In this document: piece by piece, positions 7,549 through 57,194 of the stretch
How positions within the stretch are numbered: the stretch's first letter is position 1
Layout: every line of letters begins with the position of its first letter
Source: Alphaproteobacteria bacterium
GTDB lineage: Bacteria; Pseudomonadota; Alphaproteobacteria; Rhodobacterales; Rhodobacteraceae
Assembly: GCA_030426685.1 (NCBI GenBank)
Contig: JAUHYC010000005.1
Location: forward strand, 62,001-126,000
Direction of reading: 5' to 3'
Length of the DNA stretch: 64,000 bases
Notes under the pieces: model-generated
The model's database searches: none
Told to the model about the DNA's origin: nothing
The model's input: only the letters and a program-made list of their open reading frames with translations
Position numbers and translations under genes: made by a program

Positions 7549-8229
7549 TCAGCCAAGATGCGCCGGAGCCTCGGTCTTCGGATGGATCACCGAGACGCAG
7601 AGAATGTGATGCGGCAGGTGTATCAAATAACCGGTGATGGTAGGCGCGCCTTCGGTCCGGGCAGTGAAATGCGTGATTTGTGAGTTGAAAGTGACGCGCA
7701 TGTCGGCGAATTCGATGACGTTTTTCGTCAGCGGGTAAATGGCTTTGTACGCACTTTCTTTGGCACAGAAAATCTGCTTGCCAATTTGACCGTGTTCAGT
7801 TGATGCGTGGGTTTCCAGCCATTTGCGTTCCCCAGTTGTGCAGATGATTTCGATCATGTCGGCGGGCAGAGGAGTGCTGGGTTCGATGTCGATTCCGATG
7901 CATTGCAGCGCGTGCCGGTTGCCGACGACTGCAATGCAAAGGTCTCTGCAATGAGTGATGGACCCGACGATACCAGCGGGCCAGACCGGGCTTCGGTCGG
8001 GAGCGCTCGGGATGGCTGCGGCGGGATGACCGATCTGGGCCAGCGCCGCCCGGGCTGCGATCCGGCCGGCGGTGAACTCGGATCTGCGGGCCGGGACAGC
8101 GCGCGCGACTGCGGGCTCTTCTTCCGGCAAGAGCGGTCCGCCTGGATTGGACGGGTCGGTGACGGCGACACCGACACCCGCACCAAGTATCCGGTGCAAG
8201 GGAGCGATGATCGCCGCCGGGTCGGTCAT
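7549..8229 (-). CDS. 4'-phosphopantetheinyl transferase, EntD/Sfp type
   Basis: 226 residues. The diagnostic motifs are present: GSITHC (substrate and CoA contact), the Mg-binding CIGIDIEP, and FCAKESAYKAIYP (the W/F-(S/C)-x-K-E-(A/S)-x-x-K signature). An EntD-like N-terminal FTAGRIAARAAL motif (FxxGRxxAxxAL) is also seen. It transfers phosphopantetheine from CoA to carrier-protein serines. The gene is last in the PKS-GT-NRPS operon, and its ATG overlaps the NRPS stop by 4 nt, so it is dedicated to activating the ACP and PCP of these two enzymes. It converges on the aldehyde dehydrogenase gene with an 11-bp gap. Confidence 0.92.
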   Translation of the reverse strand: MTDPAAIIAPLHRILGAGVGVAVTDPSNPGGPLLPEEEPAVARAVPARRSEFTAGRIAARAALAQIGHPAAAIPSAPDRSPVWPAGIVGSITHCRDLCIAVVGNRHALQCIGIDIEPSTPLPADMIEIICTTGERKWLETHASTEHGQIGKQIFCAKESAYKAIYPLTKNVIEFADMRVTFNSQITHFTARTEGAPTITGYLIHLPHHILCVSVIHPKTEAPAHLG

Positions 8230-11200
8230 ACGGATTGTTGGCGTCTGGATCGCATCTGGCGGCGCCGGGCCATGGCATCACTGCGCTCGGCGGCGCGTTC
8301 GGCTTTGGCGGCGGCAACTTCTTCCGCGCTCTCGGCAGGTGCAGAACCTCCCGTCTTTTGATCGATAACCTCGGCCAGTGCAGACAGGGTCGGGCAGCGG
8401 AAAATGTCGGTAATGCTGAGCGATGGCACGTCCAGCTCTGTCCGGATCTCGCGATGGGCCTGAACCGCCAGTAGCGAATGCCCGCCCAGATCAAAGAAAC
8501 TGTCGCGACCGGTGACGCCGGTGACACCCAAAATTCGCTCCCAAATTGCAGCTATCTTTTGCTGATTGCTGCCGCTGGCAATGGTTTTCGCCGCAGCCAC
8601 CGAAGTGCTCACGCGGCGAGGAGCCGGAGCGGGTAGCGCTTTTCTGTCGATCTTTTTGTTCGGCGTCAGCGGGAATTTCTCGAGTGTCACGAAATGCGCC
8701 GGGATCATGAAGTCGGGCAACTGCGCTGACAACGCTTCCTTCAGCACAGTATCAGCAACCGGTGCATCAGTGATCATGTAAGCCACCAGTTGAATCACCG
8801 AAGGCGTATCTTCGCGTGCTATAACAACTGATTGGCGGATGCCAGGGCAAGCATCCAGAAGGCTCTCGATCTCACCCAGTTCGATGCGATAACCGCGCAG
8901 CTTGACCTGATGATCGGCACGGCCCAGGAAGTCGAGCTTGCCATCGGTCCGCCAACGCACCAGATCACCGGTGCGATAAAGCCGCGCGCCAGGCAGATCC
9001 GAGAACGGGTCGGGCACGAACTGTTCAGCCGTCAGGTCCTCGCGCTGCCAATAGCCGCGCGCGACGCCCGCACCGCCAACATAAAGCTCACCGGCTGATC
9101 CGATGGGAACAGGCGACATCGCTTCATCCAGAACGTAGACTTGCGTGTTGGCGATCGGGGTGCCGACATTGACCACCCCAGCGACCGGTTCGGCCATTTC
9201 CGTGGTAGACCAGATCGTGGTTTCAGTCGGTCCGTACATATTCTGAATTTGTGCCTGAGTGATCTTGTTCAGCTCGGACACCAGCGCGCCGGGAAGGGCT
9301 TCGCCGCCAATCATCATGTGCTGCAGATGACCCAGCGCATATCGCGCCTCGTCATTCATCACCAGCATCTGAGCCATGGATGGGGTGCACTGCAAATGCG
9401 TGACCTTGTGGCGGATAATCTGGGCCGCGATGGAATGGTCATTGTCGTCCAGCGCGGTTTCCAGATTGGACTGCCGCAGAACCTCGGCCAGCGGGCGCAG
9501 ACCATCCAGCACCTGTGGCACTGGGATCCCATAGTCGATCAGGCAGGTGATTTCATCGACGCCAATGCGTTTGAGTTCTTCGACCCGTTGCAGACAATCC
9601 TCGACCGTCCCAAACAGGCCGGAATCCTCGAAATAACGCTGGAAAGCGAAGTCCAGAATTCCTTCGAGTTCATCTTCGGTCAGACCCCCGAGATCCAGTT
9701 CGAACGGGTTGGTAACGCCTTTGGGCTTCTTGAACGCCGGGAAGGCCCAGGCGTACTGCTTGATCAGGCCAGCAGCGGCGCGCAGATAATCCTTCATCGG
9801 CTCGCGGGCGATCTCGCGCACAGCCTCGCGCTCTTCGCCTACAAACGTGTGCAGCATCAGCGTCACTTTGAAGTCTTTGGGGTCATAACCGGCTTCGCGC
9901 AGGGCCTCATGATAGATACCAATCTTTCCGGCCACCTCATCGATGCTTTGGCCCAGAAGGTGAGTCAGGACGTTCGCACCAATCGCGCCTGCCTCGCGCC
10001 ACGTATCCGGGTTGCCTGCCGTGGTCACCCAGATCGGAAGCGTTTTCGAGACCGGGCGCGGTTGCGTGACGACACCGTGCATGTCACCGGATTTGGTTGG
10101 GAATTCGACTGTTTCTCCGGCCCAAAGCTGGCGTAACGTGGCGATGGATTCCAGCATGGCGGGTTTGTTATTTGGCGGCGTGTTCTCGGGCCGCAAGACG
10201 AAATCATCCGGCTGCCAGCCTGAGGCGATGGCAAGTCCGGCCCGCCCGTTGGTCAGGTTGTCGATTACTGCCCATTCCTCGGCTATTCGGGCGGTATGGT
10301 GCAGGGGCGCGACACAGCTACCAGCCCGCACGCTGATATTCTGCGTGACGGCGGCAACGGCGGCACCGGTAACTGACGGGTTAGGGTAGGGGCCACCAAA
10401 GGCATGAAAATGACGTTCGGGCGTCCAGACCGCGCAGAACCCGTTCTGATCGGCGAATTGCGCACCTTCCAGCAGCAGCTTGTATTTGTCGCGCCCAACG
10501 CCGTCGTCATTACCCCAGTAGAACAGGCTGAACTCCATCCCGCGGCCTGTGATGGCCTTGGAGTAATCTGCGTCTCCCGCGACAAGCGTGCGATTTTCAT
10601 CATCGCTGAGCACAATCTTGAAGCCGCGCGCCAGTGTCCAGAACAGCTCCAGCACCGAGATGTCAAAGGACAGGCTGGTGACGGCCAGCCAAACGCCCGG
10701 AGGGTCATGGCGAATGCGCCCGTCCATGCCGGTAAAGAAGTTCGACACATTGCGGTGTTCGATCATCACGCCTTTGGGACGTCCGGTCGAGCCGGACGTA
10801 TAGATCAAATAGGCGAGATCATCGGCACTGACGCCGCTGTTGATATTGTCCGCAGCGGCAGCGGCAATGCGGGGATCGCTATCCAGTTCCAAAACCTGCG
10901 CCTTATGTGGCGGCAGGTCTGCAGCAAGGCTGGCATCGGTTACCACGACAGCGGCTCCGCTGTCTTCGAGATAGAGCGCGATCCGATCCGCCGGATAGGT
11001 TGGATCTATGGGCACGTAAGCGCCACCGGCCTTGAGGACGGCCAATGCGCCGATCAGTAGAGCGGGCGAGCGACGGGTGTGCACGCCGACCAGCACGCCG
11101 GGGCCTACGCCCATGTCACGTAGAACATGTGCCACGCGATTGGCGGCGGCATTCAACTCGGCATAGCTGTAGGTGGTGTTCTCAAACACAAGCGCCTCAG

Positions 11201-12854
11201 CCTGTGGCGTGCGGGCAGCCTGTTCTTCGAATAGCTGATGAACGCATGAGGTCTGATCGTATTCTGCTGCGGTGGTGTTCCAGTCCAGTACGATTTGCTG
11301 CCGCTCGGGCTCAGGCAGGATTGGCAGGTCAGCGACGGGGCGCTCGGCCATTCCGGGTTCGTTCAGTGCCGCCATCAGGCTTTCCAGACGCGCCGACAAC
11401 AGCCGTTGCGCGGTTTCTTCGACATGGCCGCTATCGGCGATCAGGATGACCTGATCCCCATTTTGTGCCAGCGTCAGGCTGGTGCCCGGCACCAGACCCG
11501 ATGCGACCGAATTGGTGAGGCCGATCTGAGGTGTCTGAACCGGTGCTGGAATCCTGGCAGGCAGATCACAGGCGAACGGTCCGCGTATCTGCGCATTGGC
11601 GCGTTCGGCATCGAACTTGGCACTGGATGCGGCAAAACTTGAGCCCGTATTGAAGCGGACGGGAACCCAAGGTGATAAATGCGTGCCGCCACTGTTGTCC
11701 TGCTGGGCCAGGTCCAAGCTATTGGCATCGGCCAGACGGCAGAATAACGCGGCAAGTGTTGCTGTAACATGCGCCTCGGACACTCCGGCAGGGACGTGCA
11801 GCGTCTGCATGCGTGGTGCGCCAGACGCTGCGGTGCTGTCGATCAACGGAATATCGGGATGTGTGAGGCTTTCCAGATCCTTGCGCCAGCCGGGTTCCGA
11901 AGCCAGCGTACCAGCCAGTTCCTTTGTCAGCGCTTCGCTCTCGGCCGCCGTGGGAGAGGTCAGAACAGAGCTGCCATTTGTAACGGTACCGGGGTCAACT
12001 GCCGTCCCGAAACAGTCGCGAAACTCACTCAGCGTGATGGCTCCATCCGCTGTGGCGATGGTCAGGCTGTCATCGGCACGTGACAGGATCGTACCTGGAG
12101 CTTCGGAGGTCTCGAAGGCGGTGACTTCCGCCTTGCCCACCAGCCAGATACGACCGCCACGTTCCACTTTGGCACAGATCAGGGGGTTCCAGTATTCACC
12201 ATGATCCAGCGCCCGTACCAGCGTGACCAGCTCTTGTGCCGGTTTGGTGAAATCCAGACGCGCGGCCGCCGGGGGGCGCATATCTTTGCCAAAATAGCTG
12301 CGCTGGGACAAGTCCTGCCTGGTCAGTGTGGGCTGTTCACTATCCAGCTCGGAAATAACCTGATGAAAGCTTTCAATGGCAGCAGCATAGCATTTGGTGT
12401 TCAGTGTCAGCGCGGTCTCACCTGCGTCGATATCGAACATCCTCTGCGCAACGATGTCACCTTCATCCACCCCGCCCGAGATCGTGTGCCATGTGATACC
12501 ATGCCGGGTTTCGCCGTTCAGAATTGCCCAGACCGGCGCATTCAAACCCGCATAACGCGGCAACGGCCCGTCGTGGAAATTGACTGCCCCTCTCCCTGCC
12601 AGGTCCAGCAGGGATTGCGGCAGAAGGTCCAGATTGGCGATGCTAAGCAGCCAATCGAATGAGGTATCGCCCAGCCGGGCTTCGAGATCCTCGCCGGGCG
12701 CGTGAACAGGCAATCCCTCGGCCTCGGCCCAAGCACGCACGTCGTCGTTTCGCGTCACCACCCCCTGAACACCATGACCCGCCTCGCGCAGCATGGTCCC
12801 ACATTGAATCACAAGGGATTCGTGGCCGATCAAAAGCGTGGTAAACGACATCAT
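8226..12854 (-). CDS. NRPS loading module: formyltransferase - adenylation(Gly) with inserted luciferase-like monooxygenase - PCP
   Basis: 1542 residues. Residues 1-300 form a methionyl-tRNA-formyltransferase-like domain with N92, H94 (VNFHDGPLPRY) and D130 intact. Residues 300-530 look like a shortened condensation-type linker without HHxxxDG. The adenylation domain starts near 535 (A3 YTSGSTGRPKG at about 680) and is interrupted at about 770-1120 by a flavin-dependent luciferase-like monooxygenase (FSLFYWGNDDG, WTPERHFHAFGG). It resumes with the core from LQCTPS through YGPTET and YRTGDLVRW. Pocket residues read D, I, L, Q, M, G, M, I, W, very close to the glycine code DILQLGLIW. The PCP serine is in FFDLGGHSLLAV (about 1455), and an Arg/Ala-rich tail ends the protein. 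There is no TE. It should load glycine, N-formylate it and possibly hydroxylate its alpha carbon. The start forms TAATG with the GT gene's stop. Confidence 0.9.
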   Translation of the reverse strand: MMSFTTLLIGHESLVIQCGTMLREAGHGVQGVVTRNDDVRAWAEAEGLPVHAPGEDLEARLGDTSFDWLLSIANLDLLPQSLLDLAGRGAVNFHDGPLPRYAGLNAPVWAILNGETRHGITWHTISGGVDEGDIVAQRMFDIDAGETALTLNTKCYAAAIESFHQVISELDSEQPTLTRQDLSQRSYFGKDMRPPAAARLDFTKPAQELVTLVRALDHGEYWNPLICAKVERGGRIWLVGKAEVTAFETSEAPGTILSRADDSLTIATADGAITLSEFRDCFGTAVDPGTVTNGSSVLTSPTAAESEALTKELAGTLASEPGWRKDLESLTHPDIPLIDSTAASGAPRMQTLHVPAGVSEAHVTATLAALFCRLADANSLDLAQQDNSGGTHLSPWVPVRFNTGSSFAASSAKFDAERANAQIRGPFACDLPARIPAPVQTPQIGLTNSVASGLVPGTSLTLAQNGDQVILIADSGHVEETAQRLLSARLESLMAALNEPGMAERPVADLPILPEPERQQIVLDWNTTAAEYDQTSCVHQLFEEQAARTPQAEALVFENTTYSYAELNAAANRVAHVLRDMGVGPGVLVGVHTRRSPALLIGALAVLKAGGAYVPIDPTYPADRIALYLEDSGAAVVVTDASLAADLPPHKAQVLELDSDPRIAAAAADNINSGVSADDLAYLIYTSGSTGRPKGVMIEHRNVSNFFTGMDGRIRHDPPGVWLAVTSLSFDISVLELFWTLARGFKIVLSDDENRTLVAGDADYSKAITGRGMEFSLFYWGNDDGVGRDKYKLLLEGAQFADQNGFCAVWTPERHFHAFGGPYPNPSVTGAAVAAVTQNISVRAGSCVAPLHHTARIAEEWAVIDNLTNGRAGLAIASGWQPDDFVLRPENTPPNNKPAMLESIATLRQLWAGETVEFPTKSGDMHGVVTQPRPVSKTLPIWVTTAGNPDTWREAGAIGANVLTHLLGQSIDEVAGKIGIYHEALREAGYDPKDFKVTLMLHTFVGEEREAVREIAREPMKDYLRAAAGLIKQYAWAFPAFKKPKGVTNPFELDLGGLTEDELEGILDFAFQRYFEDSGLFGTVEDCLQRVEELKRIGVDEITCLIDYGIPVPQVLDGLRPLAEVLRQSNLETALDDNDHSIAAQIIRHKVTHLQCTPSMAQMLVMNDEARYALGHLQHMMIGGEALPGALVSELNKITQAQIQNMYGPTETTIWSTTEMAEPVAGVVNVGTPIANTQVYVLDEAMSPVPIGSAGELYVGGAGVARGYWQREDLTAEQFVPDPFSDLPGARLYRTGDLVRWRTDGKLDFLGRADHQVKLRGYRIELGEIESLLDACPGIRQSVVIAREDTPSVIQLVAYMITDAPVADTVLKEALSAQLPDFMIPAHFVTLEKFPLTPNKKIDRKALPAPAPRRVSTSVAAAKTIASGSNQQKIAAIWERILGVTGVTGRDSFFDLGGHSLLAVQAHREIRTELDVPSLSITDIFRCPTLSALAEVIDQKTGGSAPAESAEEVAAAKAERAAERSDAMARRRQMRSRRQQSV

Positions 12855-13864
12855 TACTCTCCAACAACAGGTTCTGGGGTGCTGACATGCTTGTTACGGC
12901 CCAGCACCGCGCGAAATAGCGCACGGGTATCATGCCAGAGCAGGGTCAGCAGAAAATAGGGTGAAACGCCGCGTTCCTTACGCGTGATCAGGCACCGTAG
13001 CCAATGCAGGAAGCCACCCGTCAGGTGGGTCAGCGTGGCACCGGCGGCATAAAGGCCGCCATGATTTTTGACGAAATAGTGCAGACGGGAATCGTACCAA
13101 TAGCCAGGCACGCGCTTCCACGTCTTCATACCCGTCGAGGCCGAACCGATATGCATGACCTCGCTGCTGCGCACGTAGTCAGTGCGAAACCCGGCAAGAG
13201 CGGCGCGACGGCAGAGGTCGGTTTCCTCGAAATAAAGGAAAAAGGTTTTGTCAAACAGTCCGATTTCGGACAACACACTGTCGCGCATCATCAGGCTGGC
13301 CCCGGCCAGCCAATCTACCGGCTGTGTTTGGGCAGGGATCGGGATGGGAACAGCCTTGTGACCCAGCAACTTTGTAACCGGGCCGAAATTGATCGACCCT
13401 TCGAACTCGCTGGCAATAGAGGGGAAGCGGAAGCTGGTCAGGTGCGGCTCACCGTCGTCGCCAAAGATATAGCTGCCTGCGAACCCGGCCTCGGGCGTTG
13501 TCTCCAGATGGTTCAACAACACGCAGATTGCATCCGGTGCAGGGAAGGCGTCGGAATTGACGATATAGCAGTAGTCCGGGCGCGTCCCATCACTGAGACC
13601 AGCGCGGATGCCCACATTGTTGCCTGCACCAAAGCCGCCATTACGGCCCGACTGGATCACCCGGACACGTCCATCGTTGTCCCAGCCCTGTTGGGTCACG
13701 TGGGCCGAGATCGCCTCATAGGATCCATCCCGGGAATCGTTGTCGACTATGATGATCTCACCCTTGATCCCATCCATCGCTGTCCGCACGGCTTCGGCCG
13801 AACGCAATGTCATGTCGGCGGTCTTGTAGTTCAGAAGAATGGTCAGGACGCTGGGGTCAGACAT
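12854..13864 (-). CDS. Family 2 glycosyltransferase (rhamnosyltransferase-like)
   Basis: 336 residues with a GT-A fold: LTILLNYKTADMTLRSAEAV at the start, IIIVDNDSRDGS for nucleotide-sugar binding, the GFGAGNNVGIRAG and YIVNSDAFPAP (DxD-like) stretches, and FLYFEETDLCRRA (ED-x-x-x catalytic region). It resembles WcaA/rhamnosyltransferase-type GT2 enzymes. Its start lies 22 nt inside the PKS gene and its stop overlaps the NRPS start, so it is embedded in the biosynthetic operon. This suggests it glycosylates the PKS-NRPS product or its carrier-bound form rather than serving the polysaccharide locus. Donor and acceptor are unknown. Confidence 0.85.
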   Translation of the reverse strand: MSDPSVLTILLNYKTADMTLRSAEAVRTAMDGIKGEIIIVDNDSRDGSYEAISAHVTQQGWDNDGRVRVIQSGRNGGFGAGNNVGIRAGLSDGTRPDYCYIVNSDAFPAPDAICVLLNHLETTPEAGFAGSYIFGDDGEPHLTSFRFPSIASEFEGSINFGPVTKLLGHKAVPIPIPAQTQPVDWLAGASLMMRDSVLSEIGLFDKTFFLYFEETDLCRRAALAGFRTDYVRSSEVMHIGSASTGMKTWKRVPGYWYDSRLHYFVKNHGGLYAAGATLTHLTGGFLHWLRCLITRKERGVSPYFLLTLLWHDTRALFRAVLGRNKHVSTPEPVVGE

Positions 13865-16800
13865 TTTTTCTCGGCCTCATCCAGGCATCGTTTCATACGG
13901 GACGCGAGCACGCGTACATTTGGTTCCAGAACCATCGAGTCATGATCGCCGGGCACCTCGGACACCTCGACCCTGGGCGCCCATGGCGTCCAGTCGTTGT
14001 CGTGAGTGATGTAATCACGCTCGTGGTTGATCAGTCGATCCGGGGCCACCTTCCATTTCGCCACCAGCGGCGGACGGAACAGGGTTAGCGGGCCGGACCA
14101 GGGTTTTAGCGGGTAGGAACCAACGCTTTCCAAAAACGCCTCTTCGATGGCAGCGTTGTGGAACTGCTGACCGTCCGATTCGGGCTCATCACCGGATCTG
14201 CGTTTTTCCATTTCCCAAGAGATACGATTTTTGGCCCATTCGACGGGATAGCTGGGACCACGCTCGCGCAGTTCCAGAAGCTGGATCATGATCCGGTCGC
14301 GTTTGCTGATCGCGGGGCGGACGGGCAGGGGGGTGTCGAGCATGACCAAAGCGCTGACCTCTTCACCGGCAGCGGTCAGTTGCTGGGCAATCTCATAAGC
14401 AGTGATACCGCCACCCGAGAAGCCCCCCAACATGTAGGGCCCGTGCGGCTGCACTTGTCGCATCTCGGCAATATAGTCGCGTGCCGCTTCGCAGAGATCG
14501 CGGTGAGGGTCTTCATCACCGAACAAACCACGCGCCTGAAGCCCGTAGAAGGGCCGGTCGGTTCCGATCAGATGCGCAAGGTGGCGCAGGTTCAGGACGT
14601 TTCCGAACATGCCTGCCACCAGGAAAAACGGCGTTTTGGGGCCGCCTTCGCCGGTGTGCATCGGAACCAGGTGAGTGAACCGGCGTTCCGGAGCCGCGGG
14701 GGCAGCCGAAGGTGCGTCGCTGCCGCCGCCACCCTCGGTTGGAACACCGCGTGCAGCGATCAGCTCGGCGCATTTGCGGATCGTCGGAGCTTCGAACAGA
14801 ACCGATATCGGGAAGTCCACGTTATAGGTTTTGCGGATTTGCGCGAAGAGGCGCACAGCGATCAGGGAATGGCCGCCGAGATCAAAGAAACTGTCCTCGA
14901 CCCCTATCTGATCCACGCCCAGCAACTCCTGCCAGAACCCGGCGAGACGGATTTCGATATCGTTTTCAGGCGCGACGTAGTCCGAGTCCAGCTCGGGCCG
15001 CTCAAATTTCTGATCTGACCCGGCGGCATTCGCATTGGTCTCGCCCGCCTGCGCCACAAGGCTGTTGAGATCAAGCGAGGACAGAATGACCTGAGATTGC
15101 TTCGAAGCCAGTGCGCGGAAGAACAGATCGGCGCCCTCACTGGCCAGAATACCTTGGGACAGGTTGTGGCGCAGCCGTTCCTCGGCCGGTGAAAGCGGGG
15201 CCGGAGTGTCCAACTCACCCGATTGCGAAGTCGGAGCCTCAGTTGCAGCGAACCCGGCGGCTTCTTCCATGCGGCGGATCGAGAAACCTTCGATCTCGAC
15301 GCAGACAGTGCCATCGGGGGCCGCAATCGTGACGTCGAAACTTGCTGTCTCTCCATCGGCGCGGTTGTTACCGGCGTTACGGACCCAACTGACGATTTTG
15401 GCGGGCAGCGATTGGTGAACGCGAACCGACCGGTATGAGACCGGCACCCACAAATGGGTCGGCTCATAGCCTTCGATCAGGGGCATGGCCCAACCGGTTG
15501 CCAGGTCCATCAGACCCGGGTGCAGGTGGTAACCGGCATCAATGTCACCGCGCAGGTCTTCCGTCAGGGCCAGATGCGCAAGGCCCTCACCTTGACCAAG
15601 CGCAGTCGAGGTCAGAACGCGCCAGCGTGGGCCAAAGGCCAGATGCGCCTCCTGGCTGGACCGCAGGCGCCCACCTTCGGGGGCTTGCCGCGGATCGGAA
15701 CAGCGCGCGGCAATCGAAGCGATATCGATGGGGTCGGGCGCAGGCAGCGGCAGCAGAGACAGGCTGGCCTGTGCATTCATCTCAAACGGTTCGCCGTCGG
15801 CGGCGCTTTCGACGACCAGATCGTAGCCTACATCGTTGCGTGGCAGGCGGAGTTTGACCTGCTGGTCCTTGCTGTCCGACACCGCTAGCGGGCGCAGGAA
15901 ATACAGATCCCTGATTTCGAACGGCGTGCTTTCTCCTTGAGCCGCCATCGCTTCGGAGGCCAGTTCCAGATATCCGGTACCAGGGATCAGTGCGTCGCCC
16001 GCCTTGGTGCGGTGATCGTTGAGGAACCAGCGGTCCTGTGCGTCGTAGGCCGCGGTGAACAGGCGATTGCCGGATGGATCGAACGTCGCCTCATCCAACA
16101 TCGGAACGGAGGCGGGTTGCGTTGGGGGTGGGGTACCTCCCGTGCGGGCCTCCATCGCGTCAGCGGCCATGCCGACATCGGACCAGATGCCCCAGTTGAT
16201 CGCCAGCACCTGCGTGTTGTCTGTTGCCCGTGCCCGGGCATAGGCGTTCAAGTATTCGTTTGCGGCCACATAGTCGACCTGACCAATCGGAGCCGTTGCG
16301 GTCGAGGTCGACGAGAACAGGACGAGCCAGTCCAGAGCGCCATCTGGGAACAGCTGATCGATGACCTGTGTGCCGTGGAGTTTCGGGGTGAACACGTCTT
16401 CGATTTCCATCATCGACTTGGTCATGATGGGGGCATCGTCGATCAGACCGGCGGCGTGGATGACGCCGTTGATCTGCCCAAGCTCTGCCGTCACCTGATC
16501 AATGGCGGCGCGCATGTCTTCGACATTCGAGACATCGGCACTGATCGACAGAACCTTACCGCCGGCAGCCTCCAATGCTTCAATCGCGCGGATGCGGCGG
16601 GCTGTGCTGTCTTGCGGCGCGCTGTTCTGCAGAATTCGGGGCCACTGGTCGCGAGGTGGCAGAGCACCGCGTGAGACCAGAACGATATTCGCCTTGCAAC
16701 GGTTAATGAGCGACTCGGCCAGTGTCAGGCCAATGCCGCCAAAACCGCCGGTGATCAGATAAACGCCACCATCGCGCAAAGGCAGGTCCTGAGGCATCGG

Positions 16801-19800
16801 GTCAGGCAGCGTTTGCGCGCGGTATTGTTGCTCCATCCGCTTGCCGCCGCGCAGGGCAGCCGTCCAGTTGCCGGGGGTGGCCAGCAAGTCTTCAAGCACC
16901 TGATCGGCCAGCTCGGGCGACGGTGCCGGGGCTTTGCGTTTACCGTTTTGCTGGGGCAGATCGATATCCAACACACCGCAAGTGATACCCGGGTATTCGC
17001 GCGGGATCACACGGGCGGGGCCGGTTAGCGTGGCCTTTTCGGGATGGGGCAGCCCTTCATCCCTTACCTGAAACGCGCCGGAACTGAGAACACTGATGTG
17101 CATGTGACCCGAGAGGTCTTCCTCTCCAATTGCCTGCGCCAGGAAGAACAGGCTGAAAAATCCCTGCTCCAGATTGCGGTGGAAGAAGCTGCTTCCAGGG
17201 CGGAAGCTTTCGTCCTGGGTCAGCAGCCAGCCATGGACAATTCGGTTGGGAATGCGGTCGTTGGCTGCCAGATCGGCAAGCAATGCCTGATACCCTTCGC
17301 GTCCGCGTTCTGGAGCGAGCCGATAGGTATCGGCGTCAATACGCGCGAATGCATCACCAGTGGTGACGACGGTCACCGTATGCCCGGCCTTGCGCAGGCG
17401 TTCGGCAAGCCCTCCGCACAGCCCGGCCTCATCCGCGAAGATCAGCCAGTTTTCCGCCGTGCTGTCCGACAGATCGCCCGAGACATCCACATCGCATTCG
17501 GCATACCGAGGCGACCACGCCACGCGATAGCCCCAGTCTTCGGGATCGTCTGTCCGCATCAGCCATTGTTGCGCGGTATCGCTCTGCACTTTTCCCGGCT
17601 CAATGAAATAGGGCGAGCGCTGGAACCGATAGGTTGGCAGAGGCACCCGATTGCGCCGCGCCTCACCCCAGATCTGTGCCCAATCGAACTCACCACCAAG
17701 GGCCCAGACACGACCCAGCATCGCCATGAAATAGGCGTCATCGGCCACGGTATCATCCGGGTGGCGCAAGCTGCCGATCACCTGATTGGCATCGACCTTG
17801 TCATGCTGCCCCGTTAGCGAGGCCAGCGCCTTGCCGGGGCCAACTTCGATAAAGATACGTTCAGGGTTTTCGGCCAGAGTGCCGATGCAGTCGGCAAAGT
17901 GTACGGTGCCGCGCAGGTGGCCGACCCAATATTCCGGATCGGTCGCTTCAGCCTCGGTGATCCATGTACCACTGCGGTTTGACGGGAAGGGGATTTGCGG
18001 TGCGTTGAGTTCGATCGACCGTAGGTAATCGCCGAAATCCCGAAGGATCGGTTCCAACATCCGCGAATGGGCGGCGATATCGATCGGAATGCGCTGACAG
18101 TCGACATCCTGTTTCGCCAACCTCGCCTGCAGATCATCCAGCGCCGCTTGTGGCCCGGTGGCCACAGTCAGACCGGGTGCATTCACCGCGCCCAGATCAA
18201 GATCATCACCCAGAAGCGGACGCAGTTCGTCAGCGGGTAGCGGTACGCTGAGCATACCGCCAGCGGGCACCGTATCGAAGAGTTTGCCGCGCAGGTGGAC
18301 CAGCCCGATGCAATCTTCGAACGACATCACTCCGGCGACACACGCCGCGGTGTTCTCGCCCATTGAGTGGCCGACCAGGGCGGCCGGTTCCACGCCCCAC
18401 GACATCCAAAGCTGCGCCAGCGCGTATTCGGTGATCATGATCAGCGGCAGTTGCACCGAGGGTGTCTTTAACCGCTCATCTGCCTCGGCCATCTGATCCG
18501 CCTCGGGCAGCCAGATCGCGCGGATGTCGTAATCGAGTTTGGGTTGCAGGATATCCAGACCCTTGTCCATCCAGTCGGCAAAGACCGGCTCGGTCTCATA
18601 AAGATCGCGCGCCATGCCCGCGTATTGTGCCCCGCCGCCGGGGAACATAAAGACATGATCCGGATTGTCTGAGATCACTGTATGGGTGAACACGCGGCGC
18701 GGGTCGTTTTCTTCCAACATCGCGGCTGCCTGTTCGTGGGTCTCAGCCACCACAACCCGACGTTTTTCAAACGCGCGCCTCCCAGATTTCAGCGTCCAGG
18801 CCACATCTGCAAGATTCTGGTCCGGATTTGTGCGCAGATGCGCAGCCAGCGCATCGGCACCTTGATCCAGCGCCTTCTTGCTGCGCGCCGACACGGTCAG
18901 CAACTGAAACGGCCAGTCTGAGGGATCAGATTCCGGCCGTGCAGGTGCTTCCTGCAGGATCGCATGTGCATTGGTGCCGCCAACACCCAGCGAGTTCACT
19001 CCGGCGCGGCGCGGACCGTTCTGCGGAACCCAGTCAGTCAACGTGTCATTAACGCGGAAGGGGCTGGTTTCAAAATCAATGGCCGGGTTTGGCTTCTCAA
19101 AGCCCAAGCTTGGTGGCAACTCTCTGTGATGCAGCGACAAGGACGCCTTGATCAGGCTCGCCACACCTGCGGCGGTATCTAGATGGCCGATATTGGTTTT
19201 GACCGACCCCAAGCGGCAGAACCCGGTTTTCTGAGTGGTTTCGGAAAACGCCTTGCTCAAAGCTGCCACTTCGATCGGATCACCCAGGTAGGTGCCTGTG
19301 CCGTGGCATTCGACATAGTCGATGGTGTCGGCTGTAACATCCGCCATCATATGCGCTTCGGATATCGCGGCGGATTGGCCATCAACCGACGGTGCGAGAT
19401 AGCCAGCCTTGGCGGCACCGTCATTGTTGATCGCCGTGCCGCGGATGACGGCCCAGATGTGGTCTCGGTCAGCCAGAGCATCTGCCAGCCTTCGCAGCAC
19501 AACAACACCGGCGCCTGAGCCAAATACGGTTCCCTGCGCGCGGTGATCAAAGGCGTGGCACTGACCGTCGGGTGACAGCACCTCACCCTCTTTGAAGATA
19601 TAGCCCCGGTTCTGCGGCAACTCGATCGTGACGCCACCTGCCAATGCCATGTCACATTCGCCGGTCATCAGAGCCTGAACGGCGTAGTGGGCCGCGACCA
19701 GCGAGGTTGAGCAGGCGGTCTGCACATTGACGCTGGGCCCTTTGAGGTCCAACACATGGCTGACGCGGGTGGACAGGAAATCCTTGTCATTCCCGGTGTG

Positions 19801-20268
19801 ACGCAACAGAAACATGCCCACATCGTCGACCAGATCGGGGTTCGAGCAGACGTTGAAATAGAAATAGCTGCCCATGCCGCAGCCTGCGAAGACACCGATT
19901 GGTCCGGGGAAGCTCTCGGGTGGATGACCCGCGTTCTCCAGGGCTTCCCAGGCGCATTCCAGCAATTGCCGGTGCTGCGGGTCCATGATGGCGGCTTCTT
20001 TGGGAGACAGGCCGAAGAATTCCGCATCGAACCTGTCGAACCCGTCCAGAGGGGCAGCGAAGGGTACATAATCCGGGCGTTTTAACAGATGCGGAGCTTC
20101 GCCTGAGGCCAGCAGCTCTTCTTCGCTGATGCGGCGGATGGATTCCACACCTCCGCGCAGGTTTGACCAAAATGTCTCAATCGAATCGGCGCCAGGCAAA
20201 TGCGCCGCCATGCCAACGATCGCGATGTCGCCATCTCTGGCTGAGTTATTCACTTTTGAACCGTCCAT
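13843..20268 (-). CDS. Modular type I polyketide synthase KS-AT-KR-DH-ACP-TE
   Basis: 2141 residues from the ATG at 20268; a GTG sits one codon upstream. KS is at about 10-435 (TACSTS nucleophile near 187, HGTGT, KTNIGHLD). AT is at about 540-830 (GHSMGE; specificity stretch IAAHS, which does not separate malonyl from methylmalonyl clearly). KR is at about 1165-1365 (TGGFGGIG, catalytic Ser in FSSTST, Tyr in VDYVAANEY; an IDD motif suggests B-type reduction). A DH hot-dog region follows at about 1410-1670 (DHRTKAGDALIPG, HPGLMD). ACP is near 1797 (FFDLGGHSLIAV). TE is at about 1870-2125 (GGFSGGG, MLDTP, PGDHDS). KR before DH is an unusual order, and the HxxxG spacing in the DH is one residue long. 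As the only extension module with a TE, it should extend the NRPS-bound starter once and release the product. Confidence 0.92.
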   Translation of the reverse strand: MDGSKVNNSARDGDIAIVGMAAHLPGADSIETFWSNLRGGVESIRRISEEELLASGEAPHLLKRPDYVPFAAPLDGFDRFDAEFFGLSPKEAAIMDPQHRQLLECAWEALENAGHPPESFPGPIGVFAGCGMGSYFYFNVCSNPDLVDDVGMFLLRHTGNDKDFLSTRVSHVLDLKGPSVNVQTACSTSLVAAHYAVQALMTGECDMALAGGVTIELPQNRGYIFKEGEVLSPDGQCHAFDHRAQGTVFGSGAGVVVLRRLADALADRDHIWAVIRGTAINNDGAAKAGYLAPSVDGQSAAISEAHMMADVTADTIDYVECHGTGTYLGDPIEVAALSKAFSETTQKTGFCRLGSVKTNIGHLDTAAGVASLIKASLSLHHRELPPSLGFEKPNPAIDFETSPFRVNDTLTDWVPQNGPRRAGVNSLGVGGTNAHAILQEAPARPESDPSDWPFQLLTVSARSKKALDQGADALAAHLRTNPDQNLADVAWTLKSGRRAFEKRRVVVAETHEQAAAMLEENDPRRVFTHTVISDNPDHVFMFPGGGAQYAGMARDLYETEPVFADWMDKGLDILQPKLDYDIRAIWLPEADQMAEADERLKTPSVQLPLIMITEYALAQLWMSWGVEPAALVGHSMGENTAACVAGVMSFEDCIGLVHLRGKLFDTVPAGGMLSVPLPADELRPLLGDDLDLGAVNAPGLTVATGPQAALDDLQARLAKQDVDCQRIPIDIAAHSRMLEPILRDFGDYLRSIELNAPQIPFPSNRSGTWITEAEATDPEYWVGHLRGTVHFADCIGTLAENPERIFIEVGPGKALASLTGQHDKVDANQVIGSLRHPDDTVADDAYFMAMLGRVWALGGEFDWAQIWGEARRNRVPLPTYRFQRSPYFIEPGKVQSDTAQQWLMRTDDPEDWGYRVAWSPRYAECDVDVSGDLSDSTAENWLIFADEAGLCGGLAERLRKAGHTVTVVTTGDAFARIDADTYRLAPERGREGYQALLADLAANDRIPNRIVHGWLLTQDESFRPGSSFFHRNLEQGFFSLFFLAQAIGEEDLSGHMHISVLSSGAFQVRDEGLPHPEKATLTGPARVIPREYPGITCGVLDIDLPQQNGKRKAPAPSPELADQVLEDLLATPGNWTAALRGGKRMEQQYRAQTLPDPMPQDLPLRDGGVYLITGGFGGIGLTLAESLINRCKANIVLVSRGALPPRDQWPRILQNSAPQDSTARRIRAIEALEAAGGKVLSISADVSNVEDMRAAIDQVTAELGQINGVIHAAGLIDDAPIMTKSMMEIEDVFTPKLHGTQVIDQLFPDGALDWLVLFSSTSTATAPIGQVDYVAANEYLNAYARARATDNTQVLAINWGIWSDVGMAADAMEARTGGTPPPTQPASVPMLDEATFDPSGNRLFTAAYDAQDRWFLNDHRTKAGDALIPGTGYLELASEAMAAQGESTPFEIRDLYFLRPLAVSDSKDQQVKLRLPRNDVGYDLVVESAADGEPFEMNAQASLSLLPLPAPDPIDIASIAARCSDPRQAPEGGRLRSSQEAHLAFGPRWRVLTSTALGQGEGLAHLALTEDLRGDIDAGYHLHPGLMDLATGWAMPLIEGYEPTHLWVPVSYRSVRVHQSLPAKIVSWVRNAGNNRADGETASFDVTIAAPDGTVCVEIEGFSIRRMEEAAGFAATEAPTSQSGELDTPAPLSPAEERLRHNLSQGILASEGADLFFRALASKQSQVILSSLDLNSLVAQAGETNANAAGSDQKFERPELDSDYVAPENDIEIRLAGFWQELLGVDQIGVEDSFFDLGGHSLIAVRLFAQIRKTYNVDFPISVLFEAPTIRKCAELIAARGVPTEGGGGSDAPSAAPAAPERRFTHLVPMHTGEGGPKTPFFLVAGMFGNVLNLRHLAHLIGTDRPFYGLQARGLFGDEDPHRDLCEAARDYIAEMRQVQPHGPYMLGGFSGGGITAYEIAQQLTAAGEEVSALVMLDTPLPVRPAISKRDRIMIQLLELRERGPSYPVEWAKNRISWEMEKRRSGDEPESDGQQFHNAAIEEAFLESVGSYPLKPWSGPLTLFRPPLVAKWKVAPDRLINHERDYITHDNDWTPWAPRVEVSEVPGDHDSMVLEPNVRVLASRMKRCLDEAEKKCLTPAS

Positions 20269-20700
20269 CACCTTAACCGAGTAACCTTTGAACGTATGTC
20301 GTAACCTGCCGCACTAAACAATTAATACTTTGATATCAGTGAACTGAATCACGGAGCTTGCGGCTGTTTCCGATCAACAAGTCTATCTGATTGTGAATCT
20401 GAACCAATAATCCCAGTTTAGACAAAAAGGTGCCAGAAATATGGCCAGGCGTGCAGTTTTTGCCAACTCGAATGTTCAGATGTTCAATCCTTGCCAATAT
20501 AGGAAACAGTTTTTCCTTTGGCCACGGATTGTAGAGAATTTGACGCAGCTTGTTCGGCCTCCCAGCCGGCTTTCATAGAAGCCATTGAATCTCTCATTTG
20601 CCAAAACAACTGCAATTAAAGTACTTGTAGGGTTCTCTTTGTTTGCCGGGTCTCCCGTAGTTCTTTGTATAAGTGTGTTTGAGTTCAGGTTTGGTTCAAG
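20269..20700. other. Divergent intergenic region, PKS operon / acyltransferase
   Basis: This 432-bp AT-richer gap must hold the promoters for the minus-strand PKS-GT-NRPS-PPTase operon and the plus-strand acyltransferase. I see no convincing sigma-70 pair, terminator or known operator. Short frames here (for example on the minus strand at 20476-20775) have no recognisable product. It is also the boundary between the natural-product operon and the polysaccharide locus. Confidence 0.5.
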
Positions 20701-21765
20701 ATGGTCTCTACCAACTATATTCCCTCTTTGGATGGCATTCGCGCAGTTTCCATCGCCCTGGTATTCCTGAGCCATGCGGGTGTTTCGGACAAGATACCCG
20801 GCGGGTTTGGTGTGACCGTCTTTTTCTTCTTATCAGGTTATCTGATCACAACGCTGTTGACAAAGGAGTGGGATAAATTTGGGTCGATTGCGATGCGCGC
20901 TTTCTATGTGCGCAGGGTTCTGCGGCTGGGACCGCCATTAATAATCACTCTGGCCCTCAGTCTGACGCTTGTGGCCTTGGGGTGGGCGCAGGGGCAATGG
21001 GATACCGGCACAATTTTGAGTCAGGTGCTTTTCTATTTCAATTATTACTCGCTTTACGGAGATGCGCACACCGTCGATGGGCTGGGCATTTTGTGGTCTC
21101 TGGCGGTTGAGGAGCATTTCTATCTGGTCTGGCCAACAATATTTGTGCTGCTTGCCCGTAACTATCTGAATTCCGGCCACTTGATCGCCCTACTGGTGGT
21201 GGTTCTTCTTTGGCGGTTTGTTCGCTATTTCGTGTTCGCGGACCCGGAGTGGACGATCTATATCTCCACGGATACCCGAATTGATAGCATCTTGTTTGGT
21301 TGTCTGCTTGCATTGTTGAAGTGGAGACACATGGCTGATGCATTGTTTCCAGGCGGGCGCGTGGGAAGATACGCTGTTTTGTTCTGTGCAATAGGGCTAA
21401 TTCTGGCCAGTTTTCTTATCCGGGATGAAGCGTTCCGGTCCACGTTTCGATACAGTCTGCAGGGGCTGGCCTTGATGCCATTGTTCTACTATGCGGTTGC
21501 GCGACCGGAGGATCCGTTTTTTAGACCGCTCAACTGGACGCCAGTTCGCTGGATTGGGATCTGGTCCTACAACATCTACCTCATTCATTATGTGATTATC
21601 GAAGCGCTGGCCTATAATCGGATAGGCACGTTTGGAAGCCCGCTCTTTCTTCTACTCGCCGCCTCGTTGTCGATCGGGATTTCTGCCCTGATTTTTTCGA
21701 CGGTCGAAAAGCCATTCAGGGCCTTGCGCAAAAAAGAACATCGCGAGCCCAGCCCGACGCACTAG
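20701..21765 (+). CDS. Integral membrane acyltransferase, OafA/YrhL (acyltransferase 3) family
   Basis: 354 residues with about ten hydrophobic segments. The N-terminus shows the family hallmark IPSLDGIRAVSIALVFLSH with the conserved His, followed by GGFGVTVFFFLSGYLIT and a conserved RVLRLGPP loop. WSLAVEEHFYLVWP is the second signature. Such proteins move acetyl or other acyl groups across the inner membrane onto surface sugars. The gene converges with the flippase gene (4-bp gap) and is divergent from the PKS operon. Acylation of the exopolysaccharide is the likeliest role; acylation of the natural product is possible. Confidence 0.9.
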   Translation: MVSTNYIPSLDGIRAVSIALVFLSHAGVSDKIPGGFGVTVFFFLSGYLITTLLTKEWDKFGSIAMRAFYVRRVLRLGPPLIITLALSLTLVALGWAQGQWDTGTILSQVLFYFNYYSLYGDAHTVDGLGILWSLAVEEHFYLVWPTIFVLLARNYLNSGHLIALLVVVLLWRFVRYFVFADPEWTIYISTDTRIDSILFGCLLALLKWRHMADALFPGGRVGRYAVLFCAIGLILASFLIRDEAFRSTFRYSLQGLALMPLFYYAVARPEDPFFRPLNWTPVRWIGIWSYNIYLIHYVIIEALAYNRIGTFGSPLFLLLAASLSIGISALIFSTVEKPFRALRKKEHREPSPTH

Positions 21766-21769
21766 CTGA

Positions 21770-23125
21770 TCAGAGAAGTAGCTTTATCGCATCTGCATTC
21801 AGCCATATGGCACAGAGGCCCAACCCAAGCCCGAGAATGGCGAAGGTCGAGTCATGCAGAGGATCCCAGGCTTTGTGCCGTCGCGCCAGCAGGATCAGCA
21901 TCGGAGTTATGGCAACATTTGCCAGAAACTGTCCGGCGAGCGCGCCAACAAGCCCGAACTGACTGACGCCGATCAGGAAAAATGAGATCTGAGTTGTCGA
22001 TCTGGCAACGACATACAGGCAAAAATTGCGAGAATCTCCGGCCGCCAACGCAACCCGGTCATATGTCTGCAGTATGACCTGCGGGATCATGGTGATTGAG
22101 ATCAGCGTTGCAATGCCTCCGGCAGCCGAATAGCGCGGGTCGTAGAGAAATGACACAATGATCGGAGCCAGCATGGCGATGATGACGGTCATGCCAAGCA
22201 AACCGCTTGTTGCCGCAAAACGCATCTGCCGAAGTTGGCGAAAATTCTCAGCCGATTCGGATGGGGGCTTCTCGCGATACAATGGGATAAGAATGCGCCC
22301 CAGAACGGCATCTCCCAGCAAAAATGGAAAGCTGGCGATAAAGAAACCGATACTGTATATGCCGAGCAGTTCGATGGTCAGAAACTTGCCCAGGATGATG
22401 CGGTCGCCCTGAGTGGCGATGAAACCGGCAATCGTGCTGATGTAGATCCATTTGCCAAAATGAAACAGCTCATTGACCGATTGGCTTTCCCACCGGAAAT
22501 GATTGCGTTCTCCGGTGAGGAACAGCATGTAAAGCGTGACCTTGGCTGCGCTGGAGATAACCACGCCAGCGACCAGAACCCAGATTGATTTGAACACCAG
22601 CGCCAGAGCAACCATGGCGATCACTCCGATTGTCTGCCCGATGAAGTCCAGCAGCATGACGCGGCCGATCATCAGGTGACGTCCGGCGGTTTCCACTCGC
22701 GTCGGCTTAAACCCCTCAATCAACAGTGAAACCCCCGCGACGGGTAGCATCATCAGCAGGGCGGGTTCATTGTAAAAGCTTGCCAGGGGATAGGCGAGTG
22801 CGCAACTGGCCAGCCAGAGTATCGTGCCGCGCGCCACCTGCATGGTCCAGGCCGTGTTCAGGAAGTCCGGATCATCGCCCCGCTTGTTTTGCTGAATCGA
22901 AGGGCTGATCCCCGCATCCGAGACCATCGACAAGCCGATCATCACGGCAACGATCAAAGCCATCAGCCCGAAAGCTTCAGGAAACAGCAGACGCGTCAGA
23001 ATGAGGTTCGAGGCAAGTCGAACCGCCTGGGTTCCTCCGAAGGAAAAGAATGTCCACAGAGAACTGCGCATGGCGCGCGCCTTAAGGCCCTGATCAGAGA
23101 ACCCTTGCTTGTATCGCTTTAACAT
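21770..23125 (-). CDS. Polysaccharide flippase, Wzx/MOP superfamily
   Basis: 451 residues from the ATG at 23125; a TTG at 23191 would add 22 residues. The chain is very hydrophobic, with about 12-14 membrane segments. It has the lipopolysaccharide-biosynthesis-protein pattern SLWTFFSFGGTQAVRLASNLILTRLLFPEAFGLMAL at the N-terminus (spaced over residues 20-55), closest to the WzxC/AmsL-like branch of MOP transporters. It should translocate undecaprenyl-linked repeat units to the periplasmic face for the Wzy-type protein encoded at 49790. It stands alone on the minus strand, between the acyltransferase and the chain-length/kinase operon. Confidence 0.88.
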   Translation of the reverse strand: MLKRYKQGFSDQGLKARAMRSSLWTFFSFGGTQAVRLASNLILTRLLFPEAFGLMALIVAVMIGLSMVSDAGISPSIQQNKRGDDPDFLNTAWTMQVARGTILWLASCALAYPLASFYNEPALLMMLPVAGVSLLIEGFKPTRVETAGRHLMIGRVMLLDFIGQTIGVIAMVALALVFKSIWVLVAGVVISSAAKVTLYMLFLTGERNHFRWESQSVNELFHFGKWIYISTIAGFIATQGDRIILGKFLTIELLGIYSIGFFIASFPFLLGDAVLGRILIPLYREKPPSESAENFRQLRQMRFAATSGLLGMTVIIAMLAPIIVSFLYDPRYSAAGGIATLISITMIPQVILQTYDRVALAAGDSRNFCLYVVARSTTQISFFLIGVSQFGLVGALAGQFLANVAITPMLILLARRHKAWDPLHDSTFAILGLGLGLCAIWLNADAIKLLL

Positions 23126-23584
23126 TATGAACCTGATACCATCAAAACAAGAAAACACGATCGTTCGAATATCTGTCGACCGGATTAACAAGTTTCCTGG
23201 CCAAACCCACGCCTAAAACATCAATCTGGCATTTTTTTGATATGGGTGCCATCCACAGCAAATGTTGTGTGTGTTGCGCGGCTTCGTTCTTCCCGTTATG
23301 AGTGAGTGCGACGACGCGCAAGTGTGCGCCATCATGTTTTTTTGTATCGAGTAGCTTTGGGTGATCAGATATGACTATGATGAGAATCGGGGCTGCTCTG
23401 CCTCAGAGGGCCAATTCGGCCAAGAATGACTTTTTTGCTAAAGATTACTCAACAGAACAGCTCATTCGGAGGGGTGGCTGTGCCTTAGTGCTGCGGAAAT
23501 CGTGATATTAACCCGATTCCGAACAAGATGCCTCAAACTCGCCTCTTTTTAATGTAGTATGATACACGCGGTGGTGTATTTTGT
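23126..23584. other. Divergent intergenic region, flippase / export-regulation operon
   Basis: About 460 bp with no supported gene. It must carry promoters for the flippase (minus) and the ATPase-Wzz-kinase operon (plus). A TATGAT hexamer lies near 23560, about 25 bp before the assumed start, but no good -35 partner is spaced correctly. The ATPase start is itself uncertain, so part of this region could be leader. Confidence 0.4.
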
Positions 23585-24517
23585 GTGTGCGCCGCGAGTA
23601 CAAGAGTAAACACGTTGAACATTCGTACTGGCCATACGTCCGGCAACCAAACGACCGGTAGCTCATTGGATATATATACGGACCACTTCGGGTTGACCGA
23701 ACGGCCCTTTTCGCTTGTGCCTGATCCGGGCTTCTTGTTCTGGTCAGAGTCGCATCAGCGCGCCTTCACCATGCTGGAATATGGTATTCTGACACGGGCA
23801 CCAATCACATTGATCACGGGTGAAGTCGGATCGGGTAAGACGACCCTGGTACACCATCTGCTGAAATCTGTGGGCAGCGACGTCAAGATCGGGTTGATCT
23901 CAAACGCGCATGGTGACCGAGGTGAGCTGTTGCGCTGGGTGCTGATGGCGCTGGATCAGCCCGCACCCGCCGGCGGGACCTATGTTGATCTGTTCGCAGC
24001 CTTTCAGGCCTATCTGATTGAGCAATATGCAACCGGGCGCCGCGTGATCCTTATCTTTGACGAGGCGCAGAACCTGAGCACGGAATCCCTTGAAGAGCTC
24101 AGAATGTTCACCAATATCAATTCCAATAAGGATGAGTTGCTGCAGCTGGTTCTGGTTGGTCAGCCCGAGCTTTTGGATATGATCCGGCGACCAGAGATGC
24201 GGCAGTTTGCACAACGTGTCGCGTCAAGTTTTCATCTGACTGCGATGGATGCGCGAACCGTTCGCAAATATGTGGGGCATCGGTTGGCCGTGGCAGGGGC
24301 GAAGCGTAATCTGTTCAGCCGGGCTGCGACCGATCTGGTCCACGAAGCAACCGGGGGCGTACCCCGCCTTGTCAATCAGTTGTGTGACCTGTCGATGGTC
24401 TACGCCTTCACACGCGGCAACAAAAGTATCATTGGGCATACTGTACAAAAGGTTCTGGATGATGGTGCCTTTTTTGCGGCGCACCAACCCGAGCAAGGAA
24501 GCGAATTTAAGCTATGA
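23585..24517 (+). CDS. ExeA/PEP-CTERM-locus-type secretion ATPase
   Basis: 310 residues from a GTG; relatives usually begin at the equivalent of DHFGLTERPFSLVPDP, so a TTG at 23666 is a serious alternative start. The Walker A is ITGEVGSGKTTL, the Walker B ILIFDEAQNLS, followed by a sensor-like LVLVGQPELL. This matches the AAA ATPase family found in exosortase/EPS loci beside a GNVR chain-length protein. Its TGA overlaps the ATG of the wzz-like gene. The probable role is energising or regulating polysaccharide assembly or export at the inner membrane. No exosortase gene is visible in the window. Confidence 0.82.
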   Translation: MCAASTRVNTLNIRTGHTSGNQTTGSSLDIYTDHFGLTERPFSLVPDPGFLFWSESHQRAFTMLEYGILTRAPITLITGEVGSGKTTLVHHLLKSVGSDVKIGLISNAHGDRGELLRWVLMALDQPAPAGGTYVDLFAAFQAYLIEQYATGRRVILIFDEAQNLSTESLEELRMFTNINSNKDELLQLVLVGQPELLDMIRRPEMRQFAQRVASSFHLTAMDARTVRKYVGHRLAVAGAKRNLFSRAATDLVHEATGGVPRLVNQLCDLSMVYAFTRGNKSIIGHTVQKVLDDGAFFAAHQPEQGSEFKL

Positions 24518-26073: not shown

Positions 26074-26086
26074 GAAGGAAACTCTT

Positions 26087-34878: not shown

Positions 34879-34881
34879 GGA

Positions 34882-43509: not shown

Positions 43510-43512
43510 AAG

Positions 43513-57192: not shown

Positions 57193-57194
57193 GG

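Follow-up and report, generated by a model that had tools for sequence, protein, structure and literature searches.

We analysed a 64,000-nucleotide stretch of contig JAUHYC010000005.1 (positions 62,001 to 126,000; assembly GCA_030426685.1) from an alphaproteobacterium of the family Rhodobacteraceae, hereafter called the window, with a focus on a nonribosomal peptide synthetase (NRPS) that is predicted to load a formylated, oxidised glycine starter. The protein was designated FAL for its layout F-(C remnant)-A(LLM)-PCP, that is, a formyltransferase (FMT), a probable condensation-domain remnant, an adenylation (A) domain interrupted by a luciferase-like monooxygenase (LLM), and a peptidyl carrier domain (PCP). 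Its open reading frame (8226-12854, minus strand) starts with ATG and encodes 1542 amino acids. FAL belongs to a four-gene operon, all on the minus strand, in which the genes for a polyketide synthase (PKS) and a family 2 glycosyltransferase (GT2) lie upstream and the gene for a 4'-phosphopantetheinyl transferase (PPTase) lies downstream. The window region past the PKS side of the operon is occupied by exopolysaccharide genes. The operon genes and the parts of FAL are listed below; relatives' loci are 33 loci in other genomes near the window, some of them short contigs.

13846..20271 (-): PKS, partner of FAL, with ketosynthase (KS), acyltransferase (AT), ketoreductase (KR), dehydratase (DH), acyl carrier protein (ACP) and thioesterase (TE) domains in this order (Pfam, motifs, pairing)
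12857..13864 (-): GT2, between PKS and FAL (Pfam; 29/33 relatives' loci)
11958..12854 (-): FAL residues 1-299, formyltransferase domain with C-terminal domain, ArnA-like fold
11265..11924 (-): FAL residues 311-530, probable condensation-domain remnant without HHxxxDG (weak Condensation matches)
10590..11231 (-): FAL residues 542-755, N part of the adenylation core with motifs A3 and A4 (Pfam, motifs)
9480..10532 (-): FAL residues 775-1125, inserted TIGR04020 LLM (NCBIfam; PuwE 6ket, E 1.2e-102, TMt 0.87)
8625..9452 (-): FAL residues 1135-1410, C part of the adenylation core and A-sub (Pfam, motifs)
8364..8561 (-): PCP, LGGHS at residues 1456-1460 (Pfam, motif)
8229..8363 (-): Arg-rich C-terminal tail of FAL, R1531, R1532 and R1535 nearly invariant
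7552..8229 (-): PPTase, final operon gene (Pfam; 25/33 relatives' loci)

The initial annotation, made from the letters alone, had described an F-A(LLM)-PCP starter module with an intact FMT and an A domain split between motifs A4 and A5, and this anatomy was borne out by Pfam and NCBIfam. FAL matched Formyl_trans_N (E 1.1e-15), Formyl_trans_C (E 7e-8), PP-binding (E 1.2e-12), AMP-binding in two stretches (E 2.2e-93) and Bac_luciferase at residues 784-1101 (E 1.7e-46). The insert scored 478.8 bits against TIGR04020 (MupA/Atu3671 LLM dependent on flavin mononucleotide, FMN; curated cut-off 244.45), and it lies between A4 (FDIS, residue 730) and A5 (NMYGPTE, residue 1205). The monooxygenase domain of PuwE, to which it is 45% identical, belongs to the same LLM family. 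Since no HHxxxDG condensation motif was found anywhere in the FAL protein, FAL is placed at a starter position with no functional condensation domain before the A domain. Segment 311-530 gave weak Pfam Condensation matches in 2/20 rows (best E 0.0017), and the lists of the fold searches bearing on it were filled by FMT; this segment is probably a condensation-domain remnant. Pfam detected no TE on FAL, which is an initiation module and not a terminating one. In AlphaFold models the mean pLDDT was 92.2 for the FMT and linker and 80.9 for the A domain with the LLM. The Arg-rich tail is a possible docking element to the PKS.

The FMT site N-H-D (N92, H94 and D130 in FAL) was kept in 19 of 20 aligned rows, the window included, while a Ruegeria variant (L106) reads N-H-A. 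At the specificity-pocket positions of A domains, compared with the glycine code, FAL reads D-I-L-Q-M-G-M-I-W, as had been proposed; this string is identical in 38/64 FMT-bearing rows, and all 64, which include the window and near-duplicates of the same species, fit the glycine-type pattern DILQxGxxW. A non-glycine pocket was thus rejected. The code type is shared by A domains that contain the LLM but lack FMT (one of these, L077, reads DMVQLGMVW), and the code therefore tracks the LLM-type A domain and not formylation. A chosen string of LLM residues is likewise mostly alike with and without FMT, although it was selected from invariant columns and hence gives no independent test. A degenerate LLM, which, like a pocket at odds with glycine, would have spoken against the initial annotation, was rejected on conservation alone (97/355 positions invariant in 32 rows). 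By its family the LLM is a conserved, predicted FMN-dependent monooxygenase. FAL differs from the F-A-PCP module of linear gramicidin synthetase LgrA in its ArnA-closer FMT, condensation-like segment, LLM insert and glycine code.

The PKS appears catalytically complete in its motifs. The KS Cys, KR Tyr/Asn, DH His and Asp, ACP Ser and TE Ser/Asp/His were present in 30/30 rows (the window and 29 relatives' loci), and the AT motif GHSxG in 29/30, with L033 reading AHSVG. The closest solved relative of the AT is ZmaA-AT (PDB 4qbu), which uses hydroxymalonyl-ACP (PMC4207774). Both share AAH in the lid motif, which is IAAH in the operon AT, whereas ZmaA-AT has GYSFG and M-C-M where the operon AT has GHSMG and D-C-Q. 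The hydrophobic MXW/MXM carrier motif that precedes the lid (PMC4207774) was therefore not found in the window AT. A methylmalonyl AT was rejected for want of YASH and of Gln in GHSxG. For a hydroxymalonyl AT the lid is like that of ZmaA, but D-C-Q in the place of M-C-M speaks against it. Methylmalonate is therefore unlikely and malonate is the preferred extender, although another extender is possible.

FAL relatives are widespread in the order of the window. TIGR04020 exceeded its cut-off in 34/196 genomes near the window and in 125/292 genomes drawn from the order (50/112 genera), the window genome being counted in both, and an FMT-linker profile matched 124/292 genomes of the order sample, also in 50/112 genera. 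In a class sample, in which only the FMT-linker part was searched, the profile matched 10/385 genomes, five of them outside the family of the window; the LLM was tested in the order sample. An FMT-linker match alone does not imply an LLM because the NRPS WP_248577267 of Bradyrhizobium barranii (L262, plasmid) shares the FMT, linker segment, A domain and PCP start with FAL, but no LLM was found in it, and a further A domain lies behind. Plasmid-borne relatives occur in Ruegeria, Parasedimentitalea, Paracoccus, Aliiroseovarius, Aminobacter, Shinella, Rhizobium, Neorhizobium and Methylobacterium. Among the matches listed, which are the best 80 of 572, further relatives were found in Agrobacterium AGB01, Acanthopleuribacter and metagenome-assembled genomes (MAGs) of Salinivenus, Myxococcota and gammaproteobacteria; the spread outside Alphaproteobacteria is accordingly undersampled. 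The search for architecture and spread suggested in the initial annotation thus places FAL relatives across Rhodobacterales, in Hyphomicrobiales and beyond.

The pairing of FAL with the PKS is close. By tblastn, the PKS was detected at 32/33 relatives' loci, GT2 at 29/33 and PPTase at 25/33. The pairing was also seen in Hyphomicrobiales, Methylobacterium, Deinococcus (with FMT in a separate frame), Acanthopleuribacter and the Salinivenus MAG, while the 10-kb flanks of the relative in the Myxococcota MAG yielded no PKS. The distance correlation was 0.964 for FAL and PKS (37 loci; 0/999 permutations as high), 0.805 for FAL and GT2 (29 loci) and 0.591 for FAL and PPTase (24 loci), with species kinship still contained in all three figures. 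In Ruegeria SCSIO 43209 (L072, 26827-27613), the place of the PPTase is taken by a 77-amino-acid frame beside a transposase.

In a tree of the A(LLM) regions, 53/58 FMT-labelled rows formed one group (SH-aLRT 98), and the remaining five (L092, L074, L071, L033 and L035) fell with L098 into a second group. L098 is labelled as lacking FMT, yet its contig starts partway through the gene, with the match beginning at query residue 252; L052 was marked as FMT-bearing although its contig is without that part, and L075 has FMT in another frame. Changes of the FMT label on the tree are therefore upper estimates. L033, L035 and L071 encode divergent FMT-A(LLM)-PCP proteins (ca. 40% identity) and represent a separate sub-family, in which a PKS or NRPS/PKS comes next and GT2 is lacking. 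The copies in a Terricaulis MAG (L107) and in Paracoccus marcusii NZ_CP143307 (H20) are spread over several frames or pieces, and are apparently decaying or badly sequenced.

In the window, the genes that a Wzx/Wzy-type polysaccharide locus would bring together, namely a flippase, an initiating sugar transferase, a Wzz protein with a bacterial tyrosine kinase, and glycosyltransferases, lie near the operon:

20701..21762 (+): Acyltransferase_3 protein, divergent neighbour of the PKS (Pfam), possible glycan O-acyltransferase
21773..23191 (-): polysaccharide flippase (Wzx-like)
24514..26070 (+): Wzz-type chain-length protein
26042..26926 (+): ParA/CpsD-type tyrosine-kinase-like protein
33898..37238 (-): three genes, polysaccharide deacetylase, glycosyltransferase family 4 (GT4) and GT2
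42949..46273 (+): dTDP-rhamnose genes rfbC, rfbB, rfbD and rfbA (similarity to annotated R. conchae genes)
48697..49422 (-): bacterial sugar transferase
56311..58112 (-): GT2 and WecG/TagA glycosyltransferases

Pfam gave no match for the Wzy polymerase candidates in the window (49793-51265) and at locus L036 (13555-15042). The polysaccharide locus also contains a 1487-amino-acid protein with PA14, G8, CEMIP beta-helix and Ig domains (37640-42103, plus strand) and a 321-amino-acid protein without a Pfam match (46294-47256, minus strand), whose family was found in 10/41 sources. A FAD_binding_4 oxidoreductase, a UbiA+HAD protein and an epimerase/dehydratase adjoin each other at 52085-56326 (minus strand) and resemble a DprE1/UbiA polyprenyl-phosphate pentose module. 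The Ruegeria SCSIO 43209 plasmid likewise has an annotated set of UbiA, FAD oxidoreductase and short-chain dehydrogenase/reductase.

The same setting was found in most of the Rhodobacterales relatives examined. At least one core polysaccharide marker was present in 46/59 flanking windows as against 1/40 control windows on the same contigs, and at least two in 19/59 as against 0/40. Per genome, the count was 24/30, compared with 0/19 control pairs (Fisher p 1.2e-8). The flanking windows were mostly 20 kb, and the controls were placed by hand at round coordinates elsewhere on the contigs, hence not at random. Two flanking windows shorter than 11 kb were left out of the window count (59/61 used) and kept in the per-genome count, which covers the relatives with two flanks (three of 33 had fewer); the control pairs used 38 of the 40 windows. 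The markers were drawn from loci around FAL relatives and from the window, and the tested genomes are others, although G032 may coincide with the Ruegeria SCSIO 43209 plasmid, the source of two markers, and other source species may recur. At least two core markers were found at 28/33 relatives' loci, the exceptions being G027, G093, G007 and the short contigs G081 and G075. The commonest non-operon neighbour families among 41 sources were GT4 (23), GT2 (22), sugar transferase (21), WecG (20), a 496-amino-acid protein without a Pfam match (19), flippase (18) and Wzz-like proteins (17). In public annotation, polysaccharide genes adjoin the operon in Ruegeria, Aminobacter, Shinella, Paracoccus, Parasedimentitalea and a Deinococcus capsule locus, and they flank it in Agrobacterium also. 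The polysaccharide link is thus strong for Rhodobacterales; the Hyphomicrobiales loci examined show it too, and elsewhere it is thin.

The initial annotation had stopped at the starter, which remains plausible; it had missed the exopolysaccharide neighbourhood and had not considered the operon PKS that decides the product. Because many relatives also have the operon amid polysaccharide genes, its product may decorate the coat rather than be a free antibiotic, and the neighbourhood points to surface polysaccharide. The reading we favour, while giving it slightly less than an even chance, is that the PKS lengthens an N-formyl-alpha-hydroxyglycyl starter into a short acid that decorates exopolysaccharide. 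The starter prediction follows from the F-A(LLM)-PCP anatomy, the glycine pocket, the conserved monooxygenase and the starter position. FAL would activate glycine, load its own PCP and N-formylate the carrier-bound glycine, and the LLM, using reduced FMN and O2, would then hydroxylate the alpha carbon to give N-formyl-alpha-hydroxyglycyl-S-PCP, in which the formyl group would protect the hemiaminal from collapse. The operon PKS is expected to take this starter and add one (or a few) malonate-type units, which KR and DH would reduce and dehydrate to a double bond. The PKS thioesterase would release or transfer a short acid, for example 4-formamido-4-hydroxybut-2-enoate (calculated masses 145.0375 Da for the acid and 127.0269 Da for the lactone). 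This acid could serve as an exopolysaccharide building block or acyl decoration, its attachment perhaps helped by the operon glycosyltransferase or a local acyltransferase.

Several observations weigh against this proposal. Co-location with polysaccharide genes is not proof, and the kinship with ZmaA-AT means that the PKS extender may not be malonate. Aminobacter and Shinella lack GT2 at its operon place and have other glycosyltransferases behind the PPTase. No acyltransferase constantly adjoins the operon in the flanking windows searched (n=61); partial relatives of the Acyltransferase_3 protein (28-40% identity) were found in 9/61 flanking and 1/40 control windows. Nine of 24 named FMT-bearing genome loci had no core marker within 10-kb FAL flanks, namely three contigs shorter than 8 kb, Litoreibacter (L079), Salinivenus (L092), Acanthopleuribacter (L093), Myxococcota (L094), the Ruegeria variant (L106) and Terricaulis (L107). 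Among 10 plasmid loci, those of Aliiroseovarius (L071), which has an exosortase gene (xrtD) nearby, and Methylobacterium (L074) were also markerless, and seven of the eight marker-bearing plasmid loci had supplied markers. Beyond Rhodobacterales and Hyphomicrobiales, a core marker was present only at the Deinococcus locus. Since the markers are of alphaproteobacterial origin, distant genes may have been missed; two GT2 and a DegT gene were recognised in Salinivenus, two GT4 in Myxococcota and one GT4 in Methylobacterium, the glycosyltransferases by Pfam. In Acanthopleuribacter, none of the six neighbours scanned was a sugar gene, with just 1.7 kb past the PKS in view. The non-FMT NRPS loci had no core markers and were not counted as a control because they come from distant taxa.

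It is conceivable, though we think it unlikely, that the same starter leads to a free small natural product (a signal, an antibiotic or a metallophore-like acid) and that the location of the operon in a polysaccharide/biofilm island is incidental. The intact PKS TE and the FAL-PKS pairs without polysaccharide markers at several loci, including Acanthopleuribacter and the Aliiroseovarius variant, fit such a product, and the available text of PMC4337385 and PMC5014874 classes the cluster as one for a secondary metabolite. The difference between flanks and controls argues otherwise, as do the polysaccharide genes in Aminobacter, Shinella, Agrobacterium and the Deinococcus capsule locus. Moreover, no transporter or resistance gene was recognised among the 30 commonest neighbour families, several of which are unassigned.

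A second, similarly improbable course is that the hydroxylated N-formylglycine loses formamide, so that the real PKS starter is glyoxylyl and the formyl group a disposable handle. In the myxothiazol/melithiazol type, according to the part of PMC11342130 consulted, a monooxygenase insert in a glycine A domain leads to N-C cleavage and carrier-bound glyoxylate, and a terminating TE follows. The likeness to this type noted in the initial annotation holds for the LLM in a glycine-type A domain and not for a terminal module with TE, FAL being instead an initiation module with FMT and a separate PKS. The identity in code type and in most chosen LLM residues with or without FMT agrees with glyoxylyl formation, whereas conservation of the FMT site in 19/20 rows would be odd if the formyl group were always discarded, which weighs against it. 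The predicted N-formyl-alpha-hydroxyglycyl starter therefore stands as to anatomy, pocket, conserved LLM and position, while sequence does not decide whether the unit is kept or split into glyoxylyl and formamide.

It is very doubtful that the LLM performs another oxidation, Baeyer-Villiger or Favorskii-like, on a later intermediate instead of hydroxylating glycine. A Favorskii-type reaction has reportedly been proposed for FbnE. This enzyme is described as a flavin-dependent monooxygenase (PMC12971057), and Baeyer-Villiger-type chain shortening has been proposed for the LLMs CalD and MndB (PMC8739492), but the LLM of FAL lies inside the A domain of a glycine starter module, as in the myxothiazol type (PMC11342130). 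There is very little to recommend formylation of a polysaccharide amino sugar rather than glycyl-PCP, with the fusion merely co-locating the enzymes: the FMT is closer to ArnA (E 6.5e-19) than to the LgrA formylation domain (E 6e-5) and has a polysaccharide neighbourhood, but its N-terminal fusion to A-PCP matches that of LgrA, and the Bradyrhizobium F-linker-A-PCP without LLM starts an NRPS with a further A domain.

The gene cluster itself is already known. In the text seen of Collins 2015 (PMC4337385), a PKS/GT/NRPS/PPTase block of unknown product is conserved in 28/57 roseobacter genomes, and Gromek 2016 (PMC5014874) gives the gene order of a four-gene roseobacter cluster of unknown product; both cite Martens et al. 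2007 for it. The window has the same four gene kinds in Gromek's order and is a member of this cluster. The initial statement that no product had been described thus agrees with print as to the product, but the genes had been published. The Phaeobacter inhibens genome contains one PKS and three NRPS genes (PMC4062626, as far as its text was available), and we infer that Inhi_1972 and Inhi_1974 are the same cluster. The portions consulted of the Collins and Gromek accounts contain no NRPS domain anatomy, starter prediction, polysaccharide link or non-roseobacter members, and none of the domain architecture, the starter chemistry and the polysaccharide link was found described in the literature searched, which covered few subscription journals. 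New here are the pairing with the PKS partner beyond roseobacters and the exopolysaccharide loci of Rhodobacterales.

TIGR04020 and the FMT-linker occur in about 125 of 292 genomes of the order (50/112 genera), yet a product of the cluster is not given in the literature as far as it was consulted. The formylated, oxidised glycine starter together with the polysaccharide setting predicts that the product would be found on exopolysaccharide, not only in culture extracts. Tentatively, and with rather more doubt than belief, we propose a hybrid NRPS-PKS dedicated to polysaccharide chemistry, by which the exopolysaccharide of many roseobacters, some rhizobia and a Deinococcus would carry a new non-sugar N-formyl hemiaminal acid residue (4-formamido-4-hydroxycrotonate or its lactone/aldehyde) as a reactive aminal handle. 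If this is true, NRPS/PKS enzymes would count among the means by which marine bacteria modify the polysaccharides on their surface, with a bearing on biofilms and on association with algae.

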